Part shown: piece after piece, positions 32,019 to 44,884 of the stretch
Position numbering within the stretch: the first letter of the stretch is position 1
How the letters are laid out: every line of letters starts with the position of its first letter
Assembly (NCBI GenBank): GCA_013334925.1
Contig: JAAXWP010000016.1
Coordinates: 1,493-46,376, forward strand
Direction: 5' to 3'
Length of the DNA: 44,884 nt
DNA from: Chlorobiaceae bacterium
Lineage (GTDB): Bacteria; Bacteroidota; Chlorobiia; Chlorobiales; Chlorobiaceae
Notes under the pieces: model-generated
The model's input: only the letters and a program-made list of their open reading frames with translations
Database searches by the model: none
What the model was told of the DNA's origin: nothing
Position numbers and translations under genes: made by a program

Positions 32019-33302
32019 ATGGCTGAAAATCAGAATCCGGCCGCAGGCAACGCGCCTGCCAAGCCGAAACCGGCGGCACCCGGCGCGGCAAAGCCGGCTG
32101 CACCAGGTGCGGCGAAACCCGCTGCTCCTGCTGCCGCAAAACCTCAGGCCCCGAAGGCTGCAGCAGCACCTTCCGGCGTTTACAAGCCTCCGGTAGACCG
32201 TACGGATGCCAACCCCTACAAAAACAACAGGGTTGGTGCTCTGGGCGCATGGTTCCAGGAGCGATTTTACGTAATCATGCCGATCCTCGACTATCTGAAG
32301 AAAAAAGAGGTGCCGAAGCATCGCCTCTCCTTCTGGTACTATTTCGGCGGACTCGGTCTGTTCTTCTTCATGATCCAGATCGTCACCGGCCTTCTGCTTC
32401 TCCAGTACTACAAACCTACCGAAGCCTCAGCATTCTCCTCGTTCGTATTTATCCAGAAAGAAGTTCCGTTTGGCTGGCTCATCCGCCAGATTCACGCCTG
32501 GAGCGCCAACCTCATGATCATGATGCTGTTCATTCACATGTTCAGCACCTTCTTCATGAAGTCCTATCGTAAACCTCGTGAGCTCATGTGGGTCAGCGGC
32601 TTCCTCCTGCTTGTGCTCAGCCTTGGCTTCGGCTTCACCGGCTATCTCCTGCCGTGGAACGAGCTGGCCTTCTTTGCGACCCAGGTCGGCACCGAGGTTC
32701 CGAAAGTGGCTCCCGGTGGTGCATTCCTGGTTGAAATCCTTCGTGGTGGCCCCGAAGTGAGCGGTGAGACCCTCACCCGTATGTTCTCGCTCCACGTCGT
32801 GCTGCTTCCCGGCCTGGTTCTCCTGGTCCTGACCGCTCACCTCACCCTGGTGCAGATCCTTGGTACTTCCGCTCCGATCGGTTACAAGGAAGCTGGTCTC
32901 ATCAAGGGCTACGACAAGTTCTTCCCGACCTTCCTTGCCAAGGACGGTATCGGCTGGATGCTTGGCTTCGCTCTTCTCGTCTATCTTGCCGCGGTGTTCC
33001 CGTGGGAGATCGGTGTCAAAGCAGATCCTCTCGCTTCGGCTCCGGTTGGTATCAAACCCGAGTGGTATTTCTGGGCACAGTTCCAGCTGCTCAAGGACTT
33101 CAAGTTCGAGGGTGGTGAACTGCTCGCTATCGTGCTTTTCACCATCGGTGGCGGTTTCTGGATGCTGGTTCCCTTTTTCGATCGTCAGGCATCGAAAGAG
33201 CAGCGCAGCCCGATTTTCACCATTATCGGCCTGCTGGTTCTCGCATTCCTGCTTGTCAACACCTACAGGGTTTACGCAGAGTACTCTGCACTTGCTCATT
33301 GA
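32019..33302 (+). CDS. petB: Cytochrome b (b6-type with subunit IV fused)
   Basis: A 427-residue protein. It has two bis-His pairs on TM helices ([10 protein letters not shown] and [18 protein letters not shown] and AHLTLVQ) and the Qo motif PEWY ([10 protein letters not shown]). The N-terminal ~50 residues are an imperfect [11 protein letters not shown]-type repeat, absent from other bc complexes. It forms the quinol-oxidising core with PetC. No cytochrome c1 or f gene follows, in line with the known green sulfur bacterial complex, which lacks one. AAGGGAG (32003-32009) lies before the ATG. A perfect 13-bp terminator closes the pair. Confidence 0.96.
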
Positions 33303-33334
33303 GTGTTTGAAGACAATCGTCTTCGTCAGGACAA

Positions 33335-33365
33335 CAGAAAAGCCCGGTTTTGCCGGGCTTTTCTG
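33335..33365 (+). terminator. Intrinsic terminator after petB
   Basis: A perfect 13-bp stem (33335-33347 with 33353-33365) with loop TTTTG; the right arm contains GGGCTTTTCTG. Confidence 0.92.
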
Positions 33366-33480
33366 CGTTCGTCAGGAGGCGGTGAGGCGTTTTCAGAAAC
33401 CTGGTTGAGTATCAATACAGGGAGGTTGTCTCAAAAGCACCAACAAACCCGCTTACTGACGCCAGTTCGTTCACTATTTC

Positions 33481-33602
33481 TGTCATTCTGAGTCCGACAC
33501 AGTCGGGCGAAGAATCCATAAGTGTCTCGTAAGTCTTTATATTTCTATCATTTATGAAGTAGTCCCAATTATTCTGGATCCTTCACTTCATTCAGGATGA
33601 CA
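33481..33602. repeat. Interspersed element, copy 1
   Basis: 122 bases from TGTCATTCTGA to TCAGGATGACA; the ends are imperfect inverted repeats. Internal landmarks are CGGGCGAAGAATCC on the left and GGATCCTTCACTTC on the right. Confidence 0.75.
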
Positions 33603-33799
33603 TTCAGGGACAAACGCAAAACACATAGGTGAATCCCTTCTGAGACCGCCTCCTTTCAAAACGCCGCTATTTCAGTGCTGCAATGGCTCTTCATGACCTT
33701 TGCTCCGGTAATAACTCAATCTGGCACAAAGAGCAGACTGTTTCAGTTATTTAGTTGTTACTCCGGCAATTAAAGATTACAACCCACGACAGCAGACAA

Positions 33800-33891
33800 T
33801 GTCATTCTGATCCCGGCCTGTCGGGAGAAGAATCCACAACTCCATTTTTTTAAAAAAAGAAGATGGATCCTTCACTTCGTTCAGGATGACA
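33800..33891. repeat. Interspersed element, copy 2
   Basis: 92 bases with the same TGTCATTCTGA and TCAGGATGACA ends, the GAAGAATCC and GGATCCTTCACTTCGTTC landmarks, and an A/T-rich centre. Confidence 0.78.
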
Positions 33892-33954
33892 GATGGTGTC
33901 TGGCATTCATTTGCGACTTATTGTTGCCGAAGTATTAAACAACCTCTCGAGTTT

Positions 33955-36900
33955 TTACGGTTTTTCAAGCAATGTCTGCATTTCATATCCGCTCAGGAAT
34001 GCGGCTTCATCGAGATGCTCAAGCCCTTCGATCCACTCGTTCAGCATTGCTTCGATACCTGCTTCTGTCAGTGCCTTTTTGTCATCGATCTCATGGAGCA
34101 AGGCGTTGATCCAGATCCACGAGAGCATCAGCGTGAAACGGTGCTCCCTGAACCAGGTCTTCAGGTGCAGATGCTGGAACCGCATGAATGAATTGAAGTG
34201 CTTGTCTCCTGAAGTGAAAAGACGGCGCAATGCCTCTTTGAGTATTGACGCCGGTGTGTTGTCGGGGTTCTCTTTTCCGCTCTGAAGAAGCAGGCAGGAG
34301 AAGAGGTCGATGAACTCCGCTCCTGATACCGCTGATCCTGTATTTTCAGACCACAGGGGCAGAAGCGTTCCAGCAAGCAGCCAGTCATCGATAAGCTGAT
34401 GCTGGAGGATACCGTTATGCCTCAACAGCTCCTGGATACACTCCAGGGCGATCAGGTCATCGATCATGTCGCAGAAGGGTTGGCAATCATCCCCGACGAT
34501 TCCAAGCGCCGCTTTGAGCCTTTTTTCTCCGGCTGTTTTTTGCAAAAGAACCGAAATCTGTCTGGCAGTCAGATAGAGCCTGGAAGAGGCGTCTGCAATT
34601 TCAGGAGGCAGAGTCAATGGTTGTTCCATGACCACCTCGAATTGCGCCGATACCTCCATAAGCAGACGTTCACATTGCTCACCGAATTTTCTCGAGGCAA
34701 CCGCATCGGTAGCCTTTTTCGCGGAAGCATCGATCCGGAGGGATCCGAGACCGTCAGCGATGACCTGGTGAACCGGTCTGAGACTCATGGAGAGTGCTTC
34801 GAGATCGACTGAGGCCACCCCGCGCCCGGCCAGGTCGTCACAGACCTGATCGTACGGTTTGAGTTTCGTGGGCCGGACGATTCTGAAATCGAGGAACACA
34901 TTGTACCGATACCCTTCAAGCAACACCTGCAGTCCATGGTCGCGGAGACGGGCGCAGGAACGAATGAACTCGAGGCCGCTCGCGTGATCCCTGAATATGA
35001 CATAGGCATCGTGGGCGTCGGGAAGGTCCAGTGCGTCGGCCAGCGAGGTCTGCCTGATCGATCCGTCGCGAAGTTGACCCGCTGAGAGTCGTAACCAACC
35101 TTCGGCTATCTCAAAACGATTGTTGTACAGAACGAGAGCCCGTTCCTCTCCAAGCCTGTTCGTGTAGGCGAATACATGCTCGTTCACGCTGCCGTCGGGA
35201 GCGTAGAGGTCGAAAAGGTAAAAGTGGTGCACCTCGGCGAAAAGCCGGCGCCTTTTCATCACAGGAAAGATCTCCCGGTAGTGACGTGCGACCAGCTCCT
35301 GGTCGGCCTGTTCGTCATAGTAAGCGCGTGCGTACTCCATGCCATACTTCTCGGTGAACCCTTCGACCTGACCGTGTCCGATCATAGGAAGCCCTGGCAG
35401 GGTGATCATCATCATGCAGACCCCGATATACTTGTCTCCCTTGCCGAACTGCGCAATGGCGGTATCCTCGTCGGGATTGTTCATGAAGTTCACATAGCGC
35501 TTCAGGATCTCGGCGTCGAACTCGAGAGTCTTTTTGATCAGTTCCCTGTAGCCGGCGTTGTCCTCCTTTTTCAGCATGTGCATGAACGCGCTGTTGTAGA
35601 CCCTGTGCATGCCGAGAGTCCTGACGAAGTACCCCTCCAGCATCCAGAAGGCTTCAGCCAGAAGCAGGGTATCCGGCACCTCTTCTTTGATCCTGTCCAC
35701 GACCTGACGCCAGAACTCTTCGGGAATAGCCGCCTCGAAATCGGCCATGCTCATCGAGAACGCGCCACGGGAGGGAACTCCTGCGGTGTGCCCTGGCTGA
35801 GGGAACCAGAGGCGCTGAATGTGCATTTTGGCCAGCACCATCGCCGCATCGAACCGGATGATGGGGAACATTCTGGCGACGTGCAGGATCTGCTGGATCA
35901 CCCCTTCACGGACTTCAGGGTTGAGGAAGTCGAGCTGGGCGGTATCATTCCATGGCATGTTGGTGCCGTCATTGCCATGGTAGATGTACCGGGTGTCGCC
36001 GGTCAGGTAGTCGACTCTCCTGAATGTTACTGCGGCGTCGGAGCGGTTCCAGTAACCATCTTCGATATGAATTCCGTAACGGCTGTCCCGGGAGAGATTC
36101 GGGCCATTGTAGGTGTAATTCTGGTAGGGGCGCTCGGAGGTCGACAAAAACCACTCTGGCTTCTGCCTGACCAGCTCCGAGTCGATACCGGTATGGTTCG
36201 GCACCATGTCACTCGCCAGGCGGATGCCTCTCCGGGCTGCCCGGTTCCTCAGATCGAGATATCCTTCGTAGCCGCCGATTTCGAGGGCTATGTCGTAGTT
36301 TTCGAGGGCGTAGGCCGAGGCTTTGGCCTCAGGGTTTCCCTGCAATCGTTTGATCATCTCCGATGCGTGGCTCCGCTCCCATAGACCGATAAGCCAGAGA
36401 GCCGTGAATCCTCGTTCGGCAAGCAGATCGAGCTCCCGGTCAGGTATGTCCTGAAGGCGCCGTATCGGATAACCATAGGCTCGGCTGAGCTGGTCGAGCC
36501 AGACATAGGTGCTTTTGGCGATCATGACCACTTCCGGCATCCATGACGAGTCAGGCGAGTATCTTGCCGGAGCGTCAGCCAGGTTGGCGAAGCTCGGAAC
36601 CCGGGCCTCTTTTTCAAAACCGCCTCTTTCGTGGCCTTTGTTTTCGGTCGCAAGGTTCTCGAAGAAGAGGTAGCGATCCTCGTCTTCGATCAGGACGATG
36701 GCATCGTCGAGCAGTTCCCACCAGGGGGAGTCCTCGAGCAGTTCAGACCAGTGCAGCCGGATATACCTGAGCTGGGCCAGCAACGAGTCGGGAGCACTCC
36801 TCATGGGAAGGGTGAGCAAATCAGCAAGGTCCGTATTGTCCGGTCCTACCGGACCCGCAGCATCCATTGCCTGATGCATGGCCGATACCATGTGTGGATA

Positions 36901-37476
36901 AGCGGTGTTTTTCCTGAGATCACGGTCACTCAGAAGGTCGAAGAACTGTTCCATGGCGGGGTTCTGGTTGTTCAGCCAGACCAGATAGGCCTCCTCCAGA
37001 GCAGAATGCAGGTTTGAGCCGGACTCGAGGTATTGAGTGGCTTTTTTTGTGGTCCGGTACAGATCCTGCGGTGGAAAATGATCCAGGAAACTGGCCAGGT
37101 ACTCTCTCGTAAGCCAAGGGGAGGTGCTGCGTTCTGCAATCGAGATCGCGTTGGCAGCCAGGCCGGCAGCCCTGGACAGAATGTGGTGGAACACTTCATG
37201 CAACAGCTTCATGCCATGGAGTTGCGCCGGCAACAGCTGCTTTGCGTCACTGCCCTTGAGCATCACGATGCGCTGGTTGATTGCATCGGCAAGCTTTTCA
37301 GCCTGTTTCAGCGCTTCGCGCCGGTCATGGGACAGCGAGAGCACTGCAAGGTCCTCCAGGTGGTACAGATCCCTTGCATTGCGGTTGATATAGAAATGTT
37401 CTTTTCCTGAATTACGGGTTTCGATGGTCATTGCCAATGTTACGTGCTCAGAATATTGAGAAGAAGCTCCGGTCAT
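33955..37476 (-). CDS. Large GH13 (alpha-amylase family) glycosidase or transglycosylase
   Basis: A 1173-residue protein. The N-terminal 310 residues and the C-terminal ~390 residues are helical and I do not recognise them; the catalytic barrel is about residues 312-780. The GH13 motifs are region I DMVPNH (423-428), region II IIRFDAA with nucleophile Asp543, region III LLLAEAF with acid/base Glu608, and region IV FMNNPDED with Asp669. In region IV a Pro replaces the usual His. LPGLPMIGHGQ also fits GH13. It probably acts on alpha-glucans such as glycogen or maltodextrin; no signal peptide is seen, so it is cytoplasmic. It starts at ATG 37476; ATG 37431 is an alternative. It is a lone reverse gene. 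Confidence 0.85.
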   Translation of the reverse strand: MTGASSQYSEHVTLAMTIETRNSGKEHFYINRNARDLYHLEDLAVLSLSHDRREALKQAEKLADAINQRIVMLKGSDAKQLLPAQLHGMKLLHEVFHHILSRAAGLAANAISIAERSTSPWLTREYLASFLDHFPPQDLYRTTKKATQYLESGSNLHSALEEAYLVWLNNQNPAMEQFFDLLSDRDLRKNTAYPHMVSAMHQAMDAAGPVGPDNTDLADLLTLPMRSAPDSLLAQLRYIRLHWSELLEDSPWWELLDDAIVLIEDEDRYLFFENLATENKGHERGGFEKEARVPSFANLADAPARYSPDSSWMPEVVMIAKSTYVWLDQLSRAYGYPIRRLQDIPDRELDLLAERGFTALWLIGLWERSHASEMIKRLQGNPEAKASAYALENYDIALEIGGYEGYLDLRNRAARRGIRLASDMVPNHTGIDSELVRQKPEWFLSTSERPYQNYTYNGPNLSRDSRYGIHIEDGYWNRSDAAVTFRRVDYLTGDTRYIYHGNDGTNMPWNDTAQLDFLNPEVREGVIQQILHVARMFPIIRFDAAMVLAKMHIQRLWFPQPGHTAGVPSRGAFSMSMADFEAAIPEEFWRQVVDRIKEEVPDTLLLAEAFWMLEGYFVRTLGMHRVYNSAFMHMLKKEDNAGYRELIKKTLEFDAEILKRYVNFMNNPDEDTAIAQFGKGDKYIGVCMMMITLPGLPMIGHGQVEGFTEKYGMEYARAYYDEQADQELVARHYREIFPVMKRRRLFAEVHHFYLFDLYAPDGSVNEHVFAYTNRLGEERALVLYNNRFEIAEGWLRLSAGQLRDGSIRQTSLADALDLPDAHDAYVIFRDHASGLEFIRSCARLRDHGLQVLLEGYRYNVFLDFRIVRPTKLKPYDQVCDDLAGRGVASVDLEALSMSLRPVHQVIADGLGSLRIDASAKKATDAVASRKFGEQCERLLMEVSAQFEVVMEQPLTLPPEIADASSRLYLTARQISVLLQKTAGEKRLKAALGIVGDDCQPFCDMIDDLIALECIQELLRHNGILQHQLIDDWLLAGTLLPLWSENTGSAVSGAEFIDLFSCLLLQSGKENPDNTPASILKEALRRLFTSGDKHFNSFMRFQHLHLKTWFREHRFTLMLSWIWINALLHEIDDKKALTEAGIEAMLNEWIEGLEHLDEAAFLSGYEMQTLLEKP

Positions 37477-37815
37477 CCGTGACGCGTGCTCTTCGTGGCT
37501 TGAGTTAGCTTGTTCATTAAGTTACGCAATAATATACATGGCTGAAACCGGAAAGCGAGCGGGCTGAAACAGGCTGTACATCGTTTCTCAGGTTGAGACA
37601 TCAGGGGGCGGTGTTACGCCTCGAAATCGAGAAAATATGGGCGTATTGGCAAGAAAAGGCCATGATTACGGCATTTTCCGCTGATGTAATTTCCTGGCAC
37701 GCTATTTGATCTGATAAACGGAAAGAGTCCATTGCTGCATTCTGGTCGGTTTCCATTCTGGACAGACCGGCATGCCGGCCAGGACAGGTCAACAGGGAAT
37801 TATTTCATCTCGATT
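37477..37815. other. Intergenic region between divergent GH13 and CysQ-like genes
   Basis: 339 bases without a convincing gene. A possible forward promoter is TTGTTC near 37510 with an AT-rich TAATATAC near 37530, but the next ATG in frame is almost 300 bases away. No repeat element or hairpin stands out. Confidence 0.5.
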
Positions 37816-38604
37816 ATGACACCGGAACTTATCGTTGCTATTGAGGCATGCATGAAAGCCGGCAGGGCGATAGCAAGGCATGATTGCCGTGTGCCAGTCC
37901 TTGAGGATGGTACGGAAGAGGAGTTTGCAACGGACGAACCCGGCTTTGAGTCTCATCAGCTCATCACCCGTGCGCTTTCGGTGACCGGGTTGCCCATACT
38001 GAGCGAGTACGGCGAACCGGTTCCATATGAAATTCGTTCCGGTTGGCTTCAGTTCTGGATGGTTTCGCCGCTCCAGGGCGTTGATGAGTTCATGGGCAGT
38101 ACCGGAGAGTATACGGTCAGCGTGGCGCTTGTTGAAGGGCATGAACCTGTGCTTGGTGTTGTCTATGTGCCGTCCAGGGATGAGCTGTACTGCGCAAGTC
38201 GGGAGACTGGCGCTTTTCATGTTCGTGAAGCAAGCAGTTCCATTGCCTATACCACGCGCCTGTTCCGGTCTGGACGAAGGGGGCTGCTTTCCGGAGTTCG
38301 TTCATGCCGGATTGTGGTCAGCCGTTCAAGGAGTGACGAGATGGTGCTCAAGTACATGAACGATCTTGGCAACAGGGAGCTCAGCATGGATCTCGTGCCG
38401 AAGGGAGGAGCGCTTAAATTCTGTCTTGTGGCAACCGGAGAGGCTGACCTCTATCCTCGTCTCGAAACGACACTCGAATGGGAGACGGCAGCCGGACATG
38501 CCATTCTCAAGGCGGTCGGAAAAAATGTGGTCGATATCCGGACCGGACAGGAGCTGGTGTATAACAAACCTGATATGGTCAATCCATGTTTTATTGCCCA
38601 GTAA
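37816..38604 (+). CDS. CysQ-like inositol monophosphatase-fold protein with degraded active site
   Basis: A 262-residue protein (start ATG 37816; an earlier TTG at 37732 is less likely) that aligns by eye with CysQ, the 3'(2'),5'-bisphosphate nucleotidase. Shared parts are PILSEYGE, EYTVSVALVEGHEPVLGVVY, GGALKFCLVATGEADLYPR and EWETAAGHAIL. The metal-binding DPLDGT motif is SPLQGV here (Ser84 and Gln87 replace two Asp), the WDTAAGH Asp is Glu223, and the N-terminal T-x-A-D motif reads ATDEPG. CysQ removes PAP formed during sulfate assimilation. With these ligands lost, the present protein is probably inactive as a classic CysQ or has another role. The frame is intact with normal codon use. 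Confidence 0.85.
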   Translation: MTPELIVAIEACMKAGRAIARHDCRVPVLEDGTEEEFATDEPGFESHQLITRALSVTGLPILSEYGEPVPYEIRSGWLQFWMVSPLQGVDEFMGSTGEYTVSVALVEGHEPVLGVVYVPSRDELYCASRETGAFHVREASSSIAYTTRLFRSGRRGLLSGVRSCRIVVSRSRSDEMVLKYMNDLGNRELSMDLVPKGGALKFCLVATGEADLYPRLETTLEWETAAGHAILKAVGKNVVDIRTGQELVYNKPDMVNPCFIAQ

Positions 38605-38688
38605 GTCTGATTTGAAGGGGTCGACGCTGGCTGCATGTCATTGTAAATATGGAAGCGACAAGTGATCTGAACTGTCAGGCTGAAGATG

Positions 38689-38716
38689 TTGCCGACATAA
38701 TTTTTAACTATATTAA
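38689..38716 (+). promoter_or_regulatory. Candidate promoter for the rml-manC locus
   Basis: TTGCCG (38689-38694), 16 bases, then TATTAA (38711-38716), about 70 bases before rmlA. A GC-rich hairpin (AGCAC/GTGCT nested in GGCC/GGCC) lies between it and the start codon. Confidence 0.4.
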
Positions 38717-38785
38717 TCAACTTTATTCCGACAAACCGGCAAGGCCAGCACATCACCGTGCTCTCCGGCCAAAGGCAAAGCTTGT

Positions 38786-39679
<894 letters not shown>

Positions 39680-39749
39680 TATGCTGTCGTTTCGTCGGGT
39701 TCATTCTGCATAAATCATGTTATCGATCATTATTCCTGTTTCGTAGTTC

Positions 39750-40307
39750 ATGAACGTCATACAGACCGCTCTTCCCGGAGTCCTCTTGTTCGAACCCCGA
39801 GTTTTCGGGGATGAACGGGGCTATTTTTTCGAATCGTTCCGCCTCGATGTGTTCGAGCGGCATGCCGGTCCACGGGTGTTCGTTCAGGACAATGAATCAT
39901 TTTCACGTCATGGAGTGATCAGGGGGCTTCATTATCAGAAACTTCCGCACGCTCAGGGCAAGCTTGTTCGTGTTATCAGAGGCACCGTGCTCGATGTGGC
40001 CGTAGATATTCGCAAGGGCTCTCCTACCTTCGGCAGGCATGTGGCCGAGGAGCTGAGCGGAGACAACCGCAGGATGATGTGGATTCCGCCAGGTTTTGCC
40101 CATGGCTTTGCCGTTCTCAGTGATACGGCACTTTTCAGCTACAAATGCGATGCTTATTACGCACCAGAATTCGATGCAGGTATCTTGTGGAACGACCCTG
40201 AGATCGGTATCGACTGGCGTATCGCACCCGAGGATGCCAGCCTGTCCGCAAAGGATATCCGCCAGCCCAAGCTCCGTGAAATCGAAGGTCTCGAACTGCC
40301 GTACTGA
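39750..40307 (+). CDS. rmlC: dTDP-4-dehydrorhamnose 3,5-epimerase
   Basis: A 185-residue cupin. It has FEPRVFGDERGYFFESF, VFVQDNESFSRHGVIRGLHY (catalytic His61), Lys71, and IPPGFAHGFAVLSD followed by Tyr131. All residues known to matter in RmlC are present. It epimerises C3 and C5 of the 4-keto sugar. It follows rmlA by 70 bases. Confidence 0.96.
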   Translation: MNVIQTALPGVLLFEPRVFGDERGYFFESFRLDVFERHAGPRVFVQDNESFSRHGVIRGLHYQKLPHAQGKLVRVIRGTVLDVAVDIRKGSPTFGRHVAEELSGDNRRMMWIPPGFAHGFAVLSDTALFSYKCDAYYAPEFDAGILWNDPEIGIDWRIAPEDASLSAKDIRQPKLREIEGLELPY

Positions 40308-40605
40308 AGGATTTTTCGATAAAACAATTGTCAGGAGCCTGTCCTCCGGTAACGGATGGCTCAATGGCAGTCACGATCGGCGCTGTCGTTCACCCTTATT
40401 GACGCGGCAATGGTAAGTCCTGAAAAAAGCGAGGAGGAAGGTCTGTCATTCTGAATGAAACACCGTGGCATGAAGAATCCTTCTGTGTATTGAAAATGAG
40501 TGCCGGAATCTTATCACGAAAAGCCGCGATCGGAATGACACGTGTGACTGCATAGCAGTAAAAAGAGTATTGATTTTTAATTGTCAGAAACATTAACTGT
40601 CGTCT
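40308..40605. other. rmlC-rmlD spacer carrying an interspersed element
   Basis: 298 bases without a gene. It holds the element at 40444-40540; the first 136 bases show nothing I can name. Its size is unusual inside an otherwise compact pathway cluster. Confidence 0.7.
40444..40540. repeat. Interspersed element, divergent copy 4
   Basis: 97 bases bounded by TGTCATTCTGA on the left and CGGAATGACA on the right, with GAAGAATCCTTC internally. The right half has drifted from the copies near 33.5-33.9 kb. Confidence 0.6.
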
Positions 40606-41487
40606 ATGAACATACTGGTGACCGGAAGCAAAGGTCAGCTTGGTTCTGAACTGAGGGCATTGCAGGATTCCCATACCTCTCACCGTTTTTATTTCACTGA
40701 TCTGCCTGAATTTGATATTACCGATGCCGATGCTGCGACAGCATTCTGTCGTGAGCATGCTATTGGTGCGATTGTCAATTGTGCAGCCTATACAGCGGTT
40801 GACAAAGCTGAAACCGATGTCAATACCGCTTTCCGGGTCAACCGTGACGGCGCGGCAGTGCTCGCTCTTGCGGCAAAGGCCGTCAGTGCGCTTCTGATTC
40901 ACGTATCCACCGACTATGTGTTCGATGGCAGCAATTGCCGTCCGTATCGTGAAGACGATCCTGCTATGCCCTGCGGAGTGTATGGCCAGTCGAAATGGGA
41001 GGGCGAGGAGGCGATCCGCAGGATCGGCCCATCCTATCTGATCCTCCGTACCTCCTGGCTCTACTCGTCGTACGGCCAGAATTTCGTAAAGACCATGCTT
41101 CGGCTCGGTAGTGAACGGGAGTCACTCGGTGTGGTGTTCGATCAGATAGGCACTCCGACCTATGCCCGGGATCTCGCTTCGGCGATTCTCGATATTCTGG
41201 AGCGTTCCGATCCGCAGACTATGTATGCCGAGACTTACCATTATTCGAACGAAGGGGTCTGTTCCTGGTATGATTTCGCTCTGGCCGTCATGATTGCCGG
41301 CGAACGATCATGTCGTGTGAACCCGATCGAAACGGCGGACTATCCCACGCCGGCAAAACGCCCGCATTTCAGCGTGCTGAACAAGCGCAAGATCAGGCAG
41401 GACTGGAACCTCGAGATTCCGCACTGGCACGATGGACTCCTGAGGATGCTCGCTGAACAGGAGCTCGTGAAACGTGACGCGTCGTGA
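40606..41487 (+). CDS. rmlD: dTDP-4-dehydrorhamnose reductase
   Basis: A 293-residue SDR-type reductase with GSKGQLGSEL (residues 7-16), NCAAYTAVDKAE, STDYVFDG (Thr102-Asp103) and YGQSKWEGE with Tyr126 and Lys130 of the catalytic YxxxK. It reduces the 4-keto group to finish dTDP-L-rhamnose. The C-terminus ends in a small degenerate repeat in the DNA (GTGACGCGTCGTGATGCGCG), which may have changed the last residues. Confidence 0.95.
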   Translation: MNILVTGSKGQLGSELRALQDSHTSHRFYFTDLPEFDITDADAATAFCREHAIGAIVNCAAYTAVDKAETDVNTAFRVNRDGAAVLALAAKAVSALLIHVSTDYVFDGSNCRPYREDDPAMPCGVYGQSKWEGEEAIRRIGPSYLILRTSWLYSSYGQNFVKTMLRLGSERESLGVVFDQIGTPTYARDLASAILDILERSDPQTMYAETYHYSNEGVCSWYDFALAVMIAGERSCRVNPIETADYPTPAKRPHFSVLNKRKIRQDWNLEIPHWHDGLLRMLAEQELVKRDAS

Positions 41488-41603
41488 TGCGCGACGCGGA
41501 AAACGTGACACGTTATGCGTTACTCCGAACGATTTCTATGGGTCTTATGAAGAGCTCAGCATCATTATGACCTAACTCCTTATCAACTATCAACTGTTAC
41601 TCA

Positions 41604-42653
41604 ATGCACATTCTGGTCACGGGCGGAGCCGGGTTCATCGGTTCACATGTTGTCAGGCATCTGCTTCATGCCTTTCCGAACTATACCATCACCAATCTCG
41701 ACAAACTGACCTACGCCGGAAACCTGGCCAACCTGAAGGATGTCGAGTCTATGTCGAACTACCGGTTCGTGAAGGGTGACATCACCGATGCCGCTTTTCT
41801 TGAAGAACTGTTTGCCGGGAACCGTTTTGATGGAGTGATCCATCTGGCTGCTGAGTCGCATGTGGACCGATCGATTTCGAGCCCGGTGGAGTTCGTGATG
41901 TCGAACGTTCTTGGAACGGTCAATCTTCTCAACGCTGCCAGGGTCGCCTGGGAGGGGGATTTCGAAGGGAAACGTTTCTACCACGTATCTACCGACGAGG
42001 TCTACGGGACGCTTGGCCGGGAAGGTATGTTCACCGAAACCACCGCGTATGATCCACACAGCCCCTATTCGGCTTCGAAGGCTTCCTCGGATCATTTCGT
42101 CAGGGCTTTCCATGACACGTATGGCCTTCCGGTAGTCATCAGCAATTGCTCGAACAACTACGGTTCATTCCAGTTTCCCGAGAAGCTGATTCCGCTTTTC
42201 ATCAACAACATCCGTCATAACAAGCCGCTGCCTGTCTATGGCAAGGGCGAGAACGTGCGTGACTGGCTCTGGGTGGTCGACCATGCCCGGGCTATCGATG
42301 TCATTTTCCACAAAGGCGCGACCGGCGAGACCTATAACATCGGCGGTCACAACGAATGGACCAACATCGACCTGATTCACCTGCTCTGCAGGATCATGGA
42401 CCGGAAACTCGACCGTCAGCCGGGCACTTCGGAATCACTCATCACCTACGTGACCGACCGTGCCGGTCATGACCTTCGTTATGCAATCGATGCTTCGAAG
42501 CTGCAGCGTGAACTGGGATGGGTGCCCTCGATCACCTTCGAGGAGGGGCTGGAGGCGACCGTCGACTGGTATCTCTCCAATCAGGAGTGGCTTGACGAGG
42601 TGACTTCCGGGGCCTATCAGCGATATTACGAAGAGATGTACGCAGGGCGCTGA
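41604..42653 (+). CDS. rmlB: dTDP-glucose 4,6-dehydratase
   Basis: A 349-residue extended SDR with GGAGFIGSHVVRHLL (residues 7-21), the TDE motif (Thr130-Asp131-Glu132 in HVSTDEVYG), YSASK (Tyr155, Lys159) and NNYGSFQFPEKLIP. These are the catalytic and NAD-binding residues of RmlB. It converts dTDP-glucose to the 4-keto-6-deoxy sugar, the second step, although the gene is fourth in order. It is separated from rmlD by 116 bases containing short degenerate repeats. Confidence 0.97.
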   Translation: MHILVTGGAGFIGSHVVRHLLHAFPNYTITNLDKLTYAGNLANLKDVESMSNYRFVKGDITDAAFLEELFAGNRFDGVIHLAAESHVDRSISSPVEFVMSNVLGTVNLLNAARVAWEGDFEGKRFYHVSTDEVYGTLGREGMFTETTAYDPHSPYSASKASSDHFVRAFHDTYGLPVVISNCSNNYGSFQFPEKLIPLFINNIRHNKPLPVYGKGENVRDWLWVVDHARAIDVIFHKGATGETYNIGGHNEWTNIDLIHLLCRIMDRKLDRQPGTSESLITYVTDRAGHDLRYAIDASKLQRELGWVPSITFEEGLEATVDWYLSNQEWLDEVTSGAYQRYYEEMYAGR

Positions 42654-42710
42654 AACTCGGTTGGTGGTGATATGCTTCTTTCGGACAAATTGATGATAAA
42701 CGAGTCTTAA

Positions 42711-44126
42711 ATGATCATTCCAGTCATTCTCAGCGGTGGTTCCGGCGCAAGGCTCTGGCCGCTTTCGCGTGCGATGTATCCGAAACAGCTGTTGTCGCTG
42801 TTCAGTGAAAAAACCATGCTGCAGGATACGGCACTTCGCCTCTCTTCCGTAAACGATGTCGGTCCGGTGACTTGCGTTTGCAATGAAGAGCACCGGTTCC
42901 TTGTTGCCGAGCAGCTCAGGGAGATCGATGGTGCTCAGCCTACGATCGTTCTCGAACCATGCGGAAGGAACACGGCGCCTGCTGCGGCAATCGCAGCGCT
43001 TCTGATTGCCGAATCGAATCCGGATGCGCTCATGCTGCTGATGCCGGCCGACCACGTGATGCTCGATACCGAAGCATTTGCGGCCGCGTTGACAAAAGGG
43101 CGTGAGACCGCTGAAAGAGGAGACCTGGTGACATTCGGGATCGTACCCTCTTCACCGGAAACGGGTTATGGATACATCAGGGTGGAGCCGGGCAAGGGAC
43201 GCGAGGGCGAGGCCTGTCCGGTGGTTGAGTTTGTCGAGAAGCCCGGCAAGGCGAAGGCCGCGGAGTATCTCGCTTCAGGGGACTACTTCTGGAACAGCGG
43301 GATGTTTCTGTTCAGGCCGGAAGCCTATCTGAACGAGCTCGAGGCGAATGCTCCGGAGATTTTGTCAGCCTGCCGCGAAGCGCTTCGACTCTCGAAACGG
43401 GATCTCGATTTTCTCAGACTCGATCCGGAAGCGTTTGCTTCATGTCCGTCCGATTCGATCGACTATGCGGTTATGGAAAAGACCCGTCGTGCGGTTGTCA
43501 TTCCTCTCGATGCGGGATGGAGTGATGTGGGAGCATGGTCATCGCTCTGGGAGGTCCAGGAGCGAGATGAAGAAGGCAATGTCAAACGGGGAGATGTCCT
43601 GGTACACGAGGTCCGTAACAGCTATGTGCATGCGACCAGCCGCCTGGTTGCCGCGGTAGGTGTCGAGGACCACGTGATTGTCGAGACGGCAGATGCCGTC
43701 CTTGTAGCTTCGAAAGACCGGGTACAGGAGGTCCGGAAGATCGTGGACGAGCTGATCCGTCAGAAGCGCGACGAGCCGTTGATGCATCGTCGTGTCTACC
43801 GTCCGTGGGGTTCCTACGAAACGATCGACGAGGGTGCCCGCTTCAAGGTCAAACGTATTACGGTCAAGCCTGGCGCCGCACTTTCGCTGCAGATGCACCG
43901 TCATCGTGCCGAACACTGGATTGTCGTCACCGGTGCGGCTCTGGTTACGGTCGAGGGTCGCAGGATCCAGCTCGAGGCAAATCAGTCAACCTACATTCCT
44001 GTAGGCGCGCAGCACCGCCTGGAGAATCATGGTGAAGAGCCGCTCGAACTTATCGAAGTACAGTCGGGGGGCTATCTTGGCGAAGATGATATCGTCCGTT
44101 TCGATGATGTGTACGGACGGGCGTGA
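42711..44126 (+). CDS. manC: Mannose-1-phosphate guanylyltransferase / mannose-6-phosphate isomerase
   Basis: A 471-residue bifunctional-type enzyme. The N-terminal nucleotidyltransferase has LSGGSGARLWPLSR, FVEKPGKAKA and NSGMFLF. The C-terminal cupin domain (about 350-465) has the RPWGSYETIDEG, KPGAALSLQMHRHRAEHW and YIPVGAQHRLEN motifs of type II phosphomannose isomerases. It makes GDP-mannose, the donor for mannose and the precursor of GDP-fucose. A separate phosphomannomutase is needed; the gene at 7.1-8.5 kb is a candidate. No terminator is seen after it; a heptad array starts 13 bases downstream. Confidence 0.95.
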   Translation: MIIPVILSGGSGARLWPLSRAMYPKQLLSLFSEKTMLQDTALRLSSVNDVGPVTCVCNEEHRFLVAEQLREIDGAQPTIVLEPCGRNTAPAAAIAALLIAESNPDALMLLMPADHVMLDTEAFAAALTKGRETAERGDLVTFGIVPSSPETGYGYIRVEPGKGREGEACPVVEFVEKPGKAKAAEYLASGDYFWNSGMFLFRPEAYLNELEANAPEILSACREALRLSKRDLDFLRLDPEAFASCPSDSIDYAVMEKTRRAVVIPLDAGWSDVGAWSSLWEVQERDEEGNVKRGDVLVHEVRNSYVHATSRLVAAVGVEDHVIVETADAVLVASKDRVQEVRKIVDELIRQKRDEPLMHRRVYRPWGSYETIDEGARFKVKRITVKPGAALSLQMHRHRAEHWIVVTGAALVTVEGRRIQLEANQSTYIPVGAQHRLENHGEEPLELIEVQSGGYLGEDDIVRFDDVYGRA

Positions 44127-44138
44127 GCCGTGGTGAAG

Positions 44139-44208
44139 AATGCTGAGTTATGAGTTATGAATGATGAATGATGAATGATGAATGCTGAATGCTGAGTGCT
44201 GAGTTATA
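44139..44208. repeat. Degenerate 7-bp tandem array
   Basis: About ten heptads of the forms ATGAATG, ATGCTGA, GTGCTGA and GTTATGA. The pattern is the reverse complement of the right half of the 13.35-13.5 kb array. Confidence 0.85.
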
Positions 44209-44285
44209 AGGATGACGTACAATCGGTTCTTTCATTCTTTATTAATCCGGCGACTACAGGATGCAAATGAATTCAAGGGAAAGTC

Positions 44286-44373
44286 TGTCATCCTGAACGA
44301 AGTGAAGGATCCATCTTCAAATCTTACAATATCTTATGGATTCTTCTTCCGACAAGTCGGGATCAGAATGGCA
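44286..44373. repeat. Interspersed element, copy 3 (inverted)
   Basis: 88 bases from TGTCATCCTGAACGAAG to CAGAATGGCA, with GGATTCTTCTTCCGAC internally. It is the reverse complement of the copy at 33800-33891. Confidence 0.75.
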
Positions 44374-44451
44374 ACCCATAACAAACCGGACTGATACTTT
44401 TAATCGCCGGAGTAATATTTGCCCCTATTGAAGAGTCTCATGATTTGCCCA

Positions 44452-44598
44452 GGTTTTCAGCCTCTTCCATTGAGGAGGGATTTATCCCGACGGATATTCA
44501 GCACTTCTTGTTACTAATAGCCCCGGTCTTCAGCCTCTTACATTCAGGAGGGATTTATCCCGACGGATATTCAGCACTTCTTGTTCTAATAGCCCCGG
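44452..44598. repeat. 73-bp direct tandem duplication
   Basis: Copy A (44452-44526) and copy B (44525-44598) are nearly identical: CTTCAGCCTCTT, GGAGGGATTTATCCCGACGG, ATATTCAGCACTTCTTGTT, TAATAGCCCCGG. GGGATTTATCCC is itself an inverted repeat. Copy B runs into the palindrome that begins a third, truncated unit. Confidence 0.9.
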
Positions 44599-44612
44599 GC
44601 TTCAGCCCGGGG
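44593..44612. repeat. GC-rich palindrome (REP-like)
   Basis: CCCCGGGCTTCAGCCCGGGG is an almost perfect palindrome (8-bp arms, TTCA loop), resembling repetitive extragenic palindromes. Confidence 0.8.
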
Positions 44613-44696
44613 TAGAGAGAGAAATAAATATCCCCCTCTTCAGCTCTCCTGTCATACTGATCCCGGCCAGACGGCGCATCCTTCCGGTTCTTTCAT

Positions 44697-44731
44697 CAGA
44701 CCCATCAGACCCATCGGACCTATAGGACCCA
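44697..44731. repeat. Short GACCCAT-type tandem array
   Basis: About four units (CAGACCCAT, CAGACCCAT, CGGACCTAT, AGGACCCAAT), the same type as at 14378-14416. Confidence 0.7.
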
Positions 44732-44873
44732 ATCTGCTGTCCAACGTGTCTCTTCTTTCTCTCTCTCTCTTTCGTCGCGTTTTTCGCACCCTGCCAAGCT
44801 TTGAGGTCAGCGATTTATATAGTACATTTGCTTATTAAGTTTTATTACGACTCAACATAAATTCTGGCATAAT

Positions 44874-44884
44874 ATGGCTGAAGA
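44874..44884 (+). CDS. Possible 5' end of a gene running out of the window
   Basis: ATG GCT GAA GA after an AT-rich stretch that could hold a promoter. Only 11 bases are visible and no ribosome-binding site is clear, so this is only a possibility. Confidence 0.2.

Follow-up and report, generated by a model that had tools for sequence, protein, structure and literature searches.

A CysQ-family gene in one Chlorobiaceae genus retained under purifying selection after loss of its catalytic site

The analyzed window, a DNA stretch of 44,884 nucleotides from a Chlorobiaceae bacterium, contains a gene for a CysQ-family protein, herein referred to as CysQx. The gene is under purifying selection after loss of the catalytic site. 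Judged from the sequences, CysQx is probably a CysQ-derived pseudophosphatase, a non-catalytic protein maintained by selection; we put the probability of this reading at roughly 65%. The gene was delimited by its open reading frame, homology, and the alignment of orthologues:

37816 to 38604, plus strand: CysQx, CysQ-family protein of 262 amino acids with a dismantled metal site

The frame starts with the ATG at 37816, ends with the stop at 38604, and contains no internal stops. The protein matches the Pfam family PF00459 above the cut-off (E = 2.1e-25) and the TIGR01331 (bisphos_cysQ) model with E = 2.1e-48. The score for the latter, 165.1 bits, is below the trusted cut-off of 228.8 and does not reach the equivalog threshold, as expected for a protein in which the signature positions are gone. 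The match to PDB 3b8b (CysQ; E = 8.5e-48) covers residues 6–261 of 262, which indicates whole-length homology, and in the tree CysQx branches with the intact CysQ proteins of Chlorobiaceae. With matches in these three libraries, the homology to CysQ is beyond chance; the open frame and clear CysQ similarity reported in the first-pass annotation are upheld. Codon use, described there as normal, is only roughly so: GC3 of CysQx is 0.565, against 0.60–0.69 for the neighboring genes, and this value suggests modest or weak expression. No second, intact cysQ was found in the assembly of this genome. No relative of CysQx was found in the scan of viral contigs, and no Rfam match was found within positions 33000–44884 of the window. 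An AlphaFold run on the five CysQx sequences described below gave a model too poor for fold search or surface mapping (pLDDT 39, pTM 0.41).

CysQ-like proteins were searched for in 98 genomes of the order, 86 of them belonging to the family, and were found in 12 genomes. Seven of these proteins are intact and five lack the catalytic site. All five site-less copies, including that of the window genome, belong to only one genus. Identity to the window copy is 72, 56, 52, and 46% for the remaining four. The same four relatives were recovered by a scan of GTDB contigs (JAAXXR010000012.1, CAIYTH010000014.1, JAAXWS010000010.1, and OMIK01000070.1), assemblies whose titles name Chlorobi, Chlorobiales, or Chlorobiaceae. 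Intact CysQ proteins of green sulfur bacteria are 36–46% identical to CysQx, the nearest being those of G028, G063, and G078 from the sister genus. Because four other assemblies show the same site loss, a sequencing error and a mutation private to this genome were both rejected as its cause. An overlapping gene was also rejected as the cause of CysQx conservation, since all other frames contain stops in every orthologue.

In INPP1, the family pattern D54...E79E80...D153PID156ST158...D317 forms three metal sites and includes the water-activating Thr; mutation of D54 alone decreases Vmax 4300-fold with Km nearly unchanged (PMC7948987). At the seven positions of this pattern CysQx has G43, E64, Y65, S84, Q87, V89, and E223, so only E64 is kept. 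Thus, CysQx fails the pattern D...EE...DPxDGT...D of the metal-dependent, lithium-inhibited phosphomonoesterases (IMPase/INPP1/Hal2 superfamily), and none of the seven residues is kept across all five orthologues. The affected motifs of the window copy are the following:

37921 to 37950, plus strand: position of the TxAD motif with the first metal Asp (codons 36–45); the residue aligned to this Asp is G43, and the Asp is lost in 4 of 5 orthologues
38005 to 38010, plus strand: position of the EE pair, here E64-Y65 (SEY); the first Glu is kept in the window copy, G004, and G007, the second is lost in all five
38065 to 38082, plus strand: SPLQGV (residues 84–89) in place of DPLDGT; D84 and T89 are lost in all five, D87 is kept in G004 only
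38320 to 38331, plus strand: SRSR in place of SRSH; the His (H172) is lost in all five
38404 to 38418, plus strand: GGALK in place of GSSLK, the presumed substrate loop; no orthologue keeps S198 or S199, and two of five keep K201
38479 to 38499, plus strand: WETAAGH in place of WDTAAGH; Glu (E223, 38482 to 38484) is present in all five

In total, seven residues are absent from all five orthologues: D84, T89, E65, D223, H172, S198, and S199. An Asp aligned to D43 was found in G017 only, where the alignment is uncertain. The replacement of DPLDGT by SPLQGV, the Glu in the WDTAAGH motif, and the altered TxAD motif had all been reported in the first-pass annotation and were all seen again, with no aligned Asp in the TxAD region; the half-retained EE pair and the missing substrate residues are additions to it. 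It also proposed to ask whether Ser84 and Gln87 are conserved: none of the orthologues has Asp at position 84 (S, S, A, S, S), and Gln87 is not conserved (Q, D, G, Y, V).

The seven intact CysQ proteins are identical at 95 positions. All five CysQx proteins keep 34 of these, and none of the seven metal and Thr positions is among the 34 (Fisher p = 0.039). Counted by alignment cells, 5 of 35 are kept at these seven positions vs. 269 of 440 at the other intact-invariant positions. When the four substrate-site residues are added, none of the eleven positions is among the 34 kept (p = 0.005). CysQx also has lineage-specific invariants, including C12, E45, C126, R129, R137, K232, and P252, as defined by five sequences only.

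It is very unlikely that CysQx is an enzyme whose active site was rebuilt, or one with another substrate or metal. Such an enzyme would fit the presence of E64 in three orthologues and D87 in G004, the conservative replacement of Asp by Glu at 223, and the preservation of H228 and the WxTAxGHAI block. However, no acidic set at the old site is common to the five proteins, as position 64 is occupied by E, E, E, P, S, position 65 by Y, H, Y, Y, C, and position 89 by V, V, D, E, P, with position 87 variable too; no new conserved acidic cluster was found beside the old site. Residual metal binding may persist where E64 (three species) or D87 (G004) remains.

H172, S198, S199, and K201 are residues that we take to be nucleotide-binding by reference to the Hal2, CysQ, and INPP1 structures. 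The window copy retains the YPR substrate motif but not SRSH or GSSLK. These residues bear on the proposal of the first-pass annotation that CysQx is a pseudoenzyme binding PAP as a sensor. The pseudoenzyme part agrees with the loss shared by five orthologues; the sensor part does not agree with the lost nucleotide-site residues. A sensor binding PAP or another nucleotide without cleavage has a precedent in INPP1 D54A, in which turnover is abolished and affinity is kept (PMC7948987), K201 is still present in G000 (the window genome) and G004, and most of YPR is retained. Nevertheless, such a role is improbable: none of the five orthologues keeps H172, S198, or S199, three have lost K201, and the metals and the DPxDGT backbone, here gone or rebuilt, also take part in substrate contacts in this superfamily.

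The chromosomal position of CysQx is the same in 5 of 5 species, between a divergent gene for an amylase-domain protein and the rfbA, rfbC, rfbD, rfbB, and manC genes (the G017 contig stops within rfbC). In the window, the fixed flanks are:

33955 to 37476, minus strand: alpha-amylase-domain protein of 1173 amino acids, divergent upstream neighbor
38786 to 39679, plus strand: rfbA, which we take to encode glucose-1-phosphate thymidylyltransferase, followed by rfbC, rfbD, rfbB, and manC

In the 1173-aa protein, the alpha-amylase catalytic domain occupies only the middle, with long flanks having no Pfam match. Its counterpart in G004 (L034:6146-9658) contains one in-frame TAA, either a sequencing error or a real break. 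Elsewhere in the window, the product of the 30143–31282 gene weakly matches carotenoid 1,2-hydratase (NF045922, E = 4.9e-9, far below the cut-off); in 5 of 5 species it is conserved next to the Rieske and cytochrome b genes.

In 16 other genomes of the genus, the amylase gene adjoins rfbA with a gap of about 200–470 bp; in G001, G010, and G012 the amylase gene is divided among contigs, the near part being next to rfbA. No cysQ remnant was found between the two genes in any of these 16 genomes, which are G005 and fifteen further members of the genus. Intact cysQ genes of the order are located at other loci with unrelated neighbors. In the tree of the flanking proteins (amylase and RfbA, LG+G4, IQ-TREE), G005 groups with G019 and G017 with a support of 100. 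Since G005 is thus located inside the CysQx group, it lost the gene, and CysQx is therefore dispensable, a point against a selected role. The CysQx tree (IQ-TREE), ((G000,G004),(G007,(G019,G017))), has the same order as the flank tree. Independent horizontal acquisition by each of the species was ruled out by the fixed position and the matching trees. The simplest history, as read from these sequences, would be one arrival, one loss of the site, and a deletion in G005. The ancestor of this six-species sub-clade would have had a CysQ gene between the amylase gene and rfbA. The metal sites, activating Thr, and substrate loop would have been lost before the species diverged, and CysQx would then have been retained by selection on its folded core.

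Two conserved elements were found in the adjacent intergenic regions:

37695 to 37709, plus strand: TGGCACGCTATTTGA, 106 nt upstream of the CysQx ATG, with a core conserved in the five CysQx species and G005
38700 to 38719, plus strand: TTTTTAACTATATTAATC, AT-rich, immediately upstream of rfbA and similar in relatives without CysQx

The core of the first element, TGGCACG-N3-TTTG, is present among the compared loci only in these six species, and G005 keeps it despite the gene loss. The spacing of TGGCACGCTATTTGA (GG-N10-GA) is like that of sigma-54 promoters, apart from the final C. The second element is probably the own promoter of rfbA.

Codon models on the fixed tree gave an omega of 0.131 for CysQx, with omega = 1 rejected (LRT 412); individual omega values are only approximate, as silent sites are close to saturation. 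The values for the neighbors are 0.115 (CrtC-like), 0.070 (amylase), and 0.043 (rfbA). CysQx thus evolves faster than rfbA and amylase, which counts against the reading as a selected pseudophosphatase. With the intact genes added, omega is 0.149 for the CysQx crown vs. 0.137 for intact CysQ. The most constrained segment comprises residues 101–145 (omega 0.046). Neutrality (omega = 1) was rejected separately on the G000, G004, and G017 tip branches; it was not rejected on the G007, G019, and G000+G004 branches or on the G017+G019 stem taken alone, and the G007 and G019/G017 lineages are under weaker constraint. A stem omega of 3.85 was rejected as evidence for positive selection, given the saturation of silent sites and an LRT of 5.6 (2 degrees of freedom).

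Given the near-saturated silent sites, a model-free count by codon position was used alongside omega. The differences between G000 and G004 at positions 1/2/3 are 0.18/0.11/0.55, vs. 0.19/0.12/0.49 for an intact pair of similar divergence (G009 and G015). In a neutral simulation, only 0.3% of runs at 20% divergence gave a stop-free pair. The five open, site-less orthologues and the crown omega of 0.13–0.15 bear out the earlier statement that CysQx is not in simple decay. DPLDGT in close relatives with dN/dS near 1, named there as the mark of a decaying gene, is not what was observed: dN/dS is far below 1, and the cysQ genes that carry DPLDGT are all more distant and located at other loci.

A slow relic, with the function gone, the gene under elimination, and the open frames reflecting recent loss, is an unlikely explanation. 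It would account for the absence of the gene from G005, for evolution faster than that of the neighbors with weak constraint on the G017+G019 stem, and for the GC3 below theirs. However, the site loss is common to all five species and predates their deep divergence (third-position differences of 0.54–0.64), about eight stops are expected in a neutral pair at 30% divergence while all five frames are open, and neutrality is rejected both on the whole tree and on each of the three tips.

The first-pass annotation had tentatively linked a relaxed need for PAP removal to an absence of assimilatory sulfate reduction. This link, as stated, is wrong here: cysH, cysD, and cysN are encoded in the CysQx genome (contigs C12 and C19), and CysH is of the APS type, scoring 251.6 bits with the APS reductase model (cut-off 235.3) and 150 with the PAPS reductase model (cut-off 254.2). 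CysN carries a fused, degenerate APS-kinase-like domain (54 bits vs. a cut-off of 138.7). With an APS-type CysH and a degenerate APS-kinase-like domain, sulfate assimilation should yield no PAP. In G017, which has the most diverged CysQx, no PAPS_reduct-family match (cysH or cysD) was found. CysN fused to an APS-kinase-like domain was also found in several members of the genus (L116:2-1324, L118:5235-7046), with about half of the profile matched (47–54 bits, cut-off 138.7). By its sequence, this domain apparently represents a second degenerate PAPS-related activity in the same lineage.

DHH-family proteins were found in 21 of 21 genomes of the genus. The second DHH protein of the window genome (L114) combines a DHH with a DHHA1 domain and, among NCBIfam models, matches NrnA best (103.5 bits vs. 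a cut-off of 350). Members of the NrnA family can hydrolyze PAP (PMC8268124), and L114 may serve as a PAP-hydrolyzing backup for CysQ. With the APS-reductase route and this NrnA-like protein available, PAP removal by CysQ would have been dispensable. A complication is contig C29 (L113, 3557 bp), which contains a sulfotransferase fragment (PF13469), cysD, and cysN fused to a complete APS kinase. This cassette, which fills the whole contig, would produce PAPS and then PAP. The contig, short and of higher GC, may have been gained recently or may be a stray one.

As a pseudophosphatase, CysQx would serve as a binding partner or regulator rather than a catalyst, using surfaces away from the old active site. 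Binding is the most likely activity, because the metal ligands, nucleophile activator, and substrate loop are lost while a constrained core and own invariants are kept; a role specifically in protein–protein binding is nonetheless a tentative assignment, somewhat short of an even chance. Recruitment of a CysQ-family protein without a catalytic centre to a new function, marked by its own invariants, is likewise possible rather than probable.

If recruitment is correct, CysQx would be a pseudoenzyme in a superfamily without a described one in the literature searched. In open-access literature, no pairing of pseudoenzyme with CysQ or inositol monophosphatase, or of "pseudophosphatase" with bisphosphate nucleotidase, was found, an absence that is suggestive only, as most subscription journals were outside the search. 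The clade forms a natural series, with intact cysQ elsewhere in relatives, five dead copies in which the loss is graded, and one deletion, which lets one ask when a fold outlasts catalysis. Annotation by homology would name CysQx a PAP phosphatase, crediting the genome with an activity that is probably absent.

Among known systems, CysQx is closest to CysQ, the 3'(2'),5'-bisphosphate nucleotidase (TIGR01331; PDB 3b8b; E. coli CysQ), with which it shares full-length homology, the core, and the WxTAAGHAI block. In contrast to CysQ, its three metal sites, activating Thr, and substrate loop are all broken, and its chromosomal position differs from that of every intact cysQ found in the order. SuhB, which has the IMPase fold, additionally functions as a Nus factor within the rRNA antitermination complex (PMC4807359; PMC6614801) and provides a precedent for a superfamily member acting in a protein complex; unlike SuhB, CysQx is tied to transcription by nothing in the data. 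The NrnA-like L114 has an unrelated fold and may cover the lost activity, its PAP hydrolysis being presumed. Two Inositol_P proteins of the same genome (L001 and L002) belong to the CysQx superfamily with 19–22% identity but, unlike CysQx, have full-length family matches and metal motifs in place.
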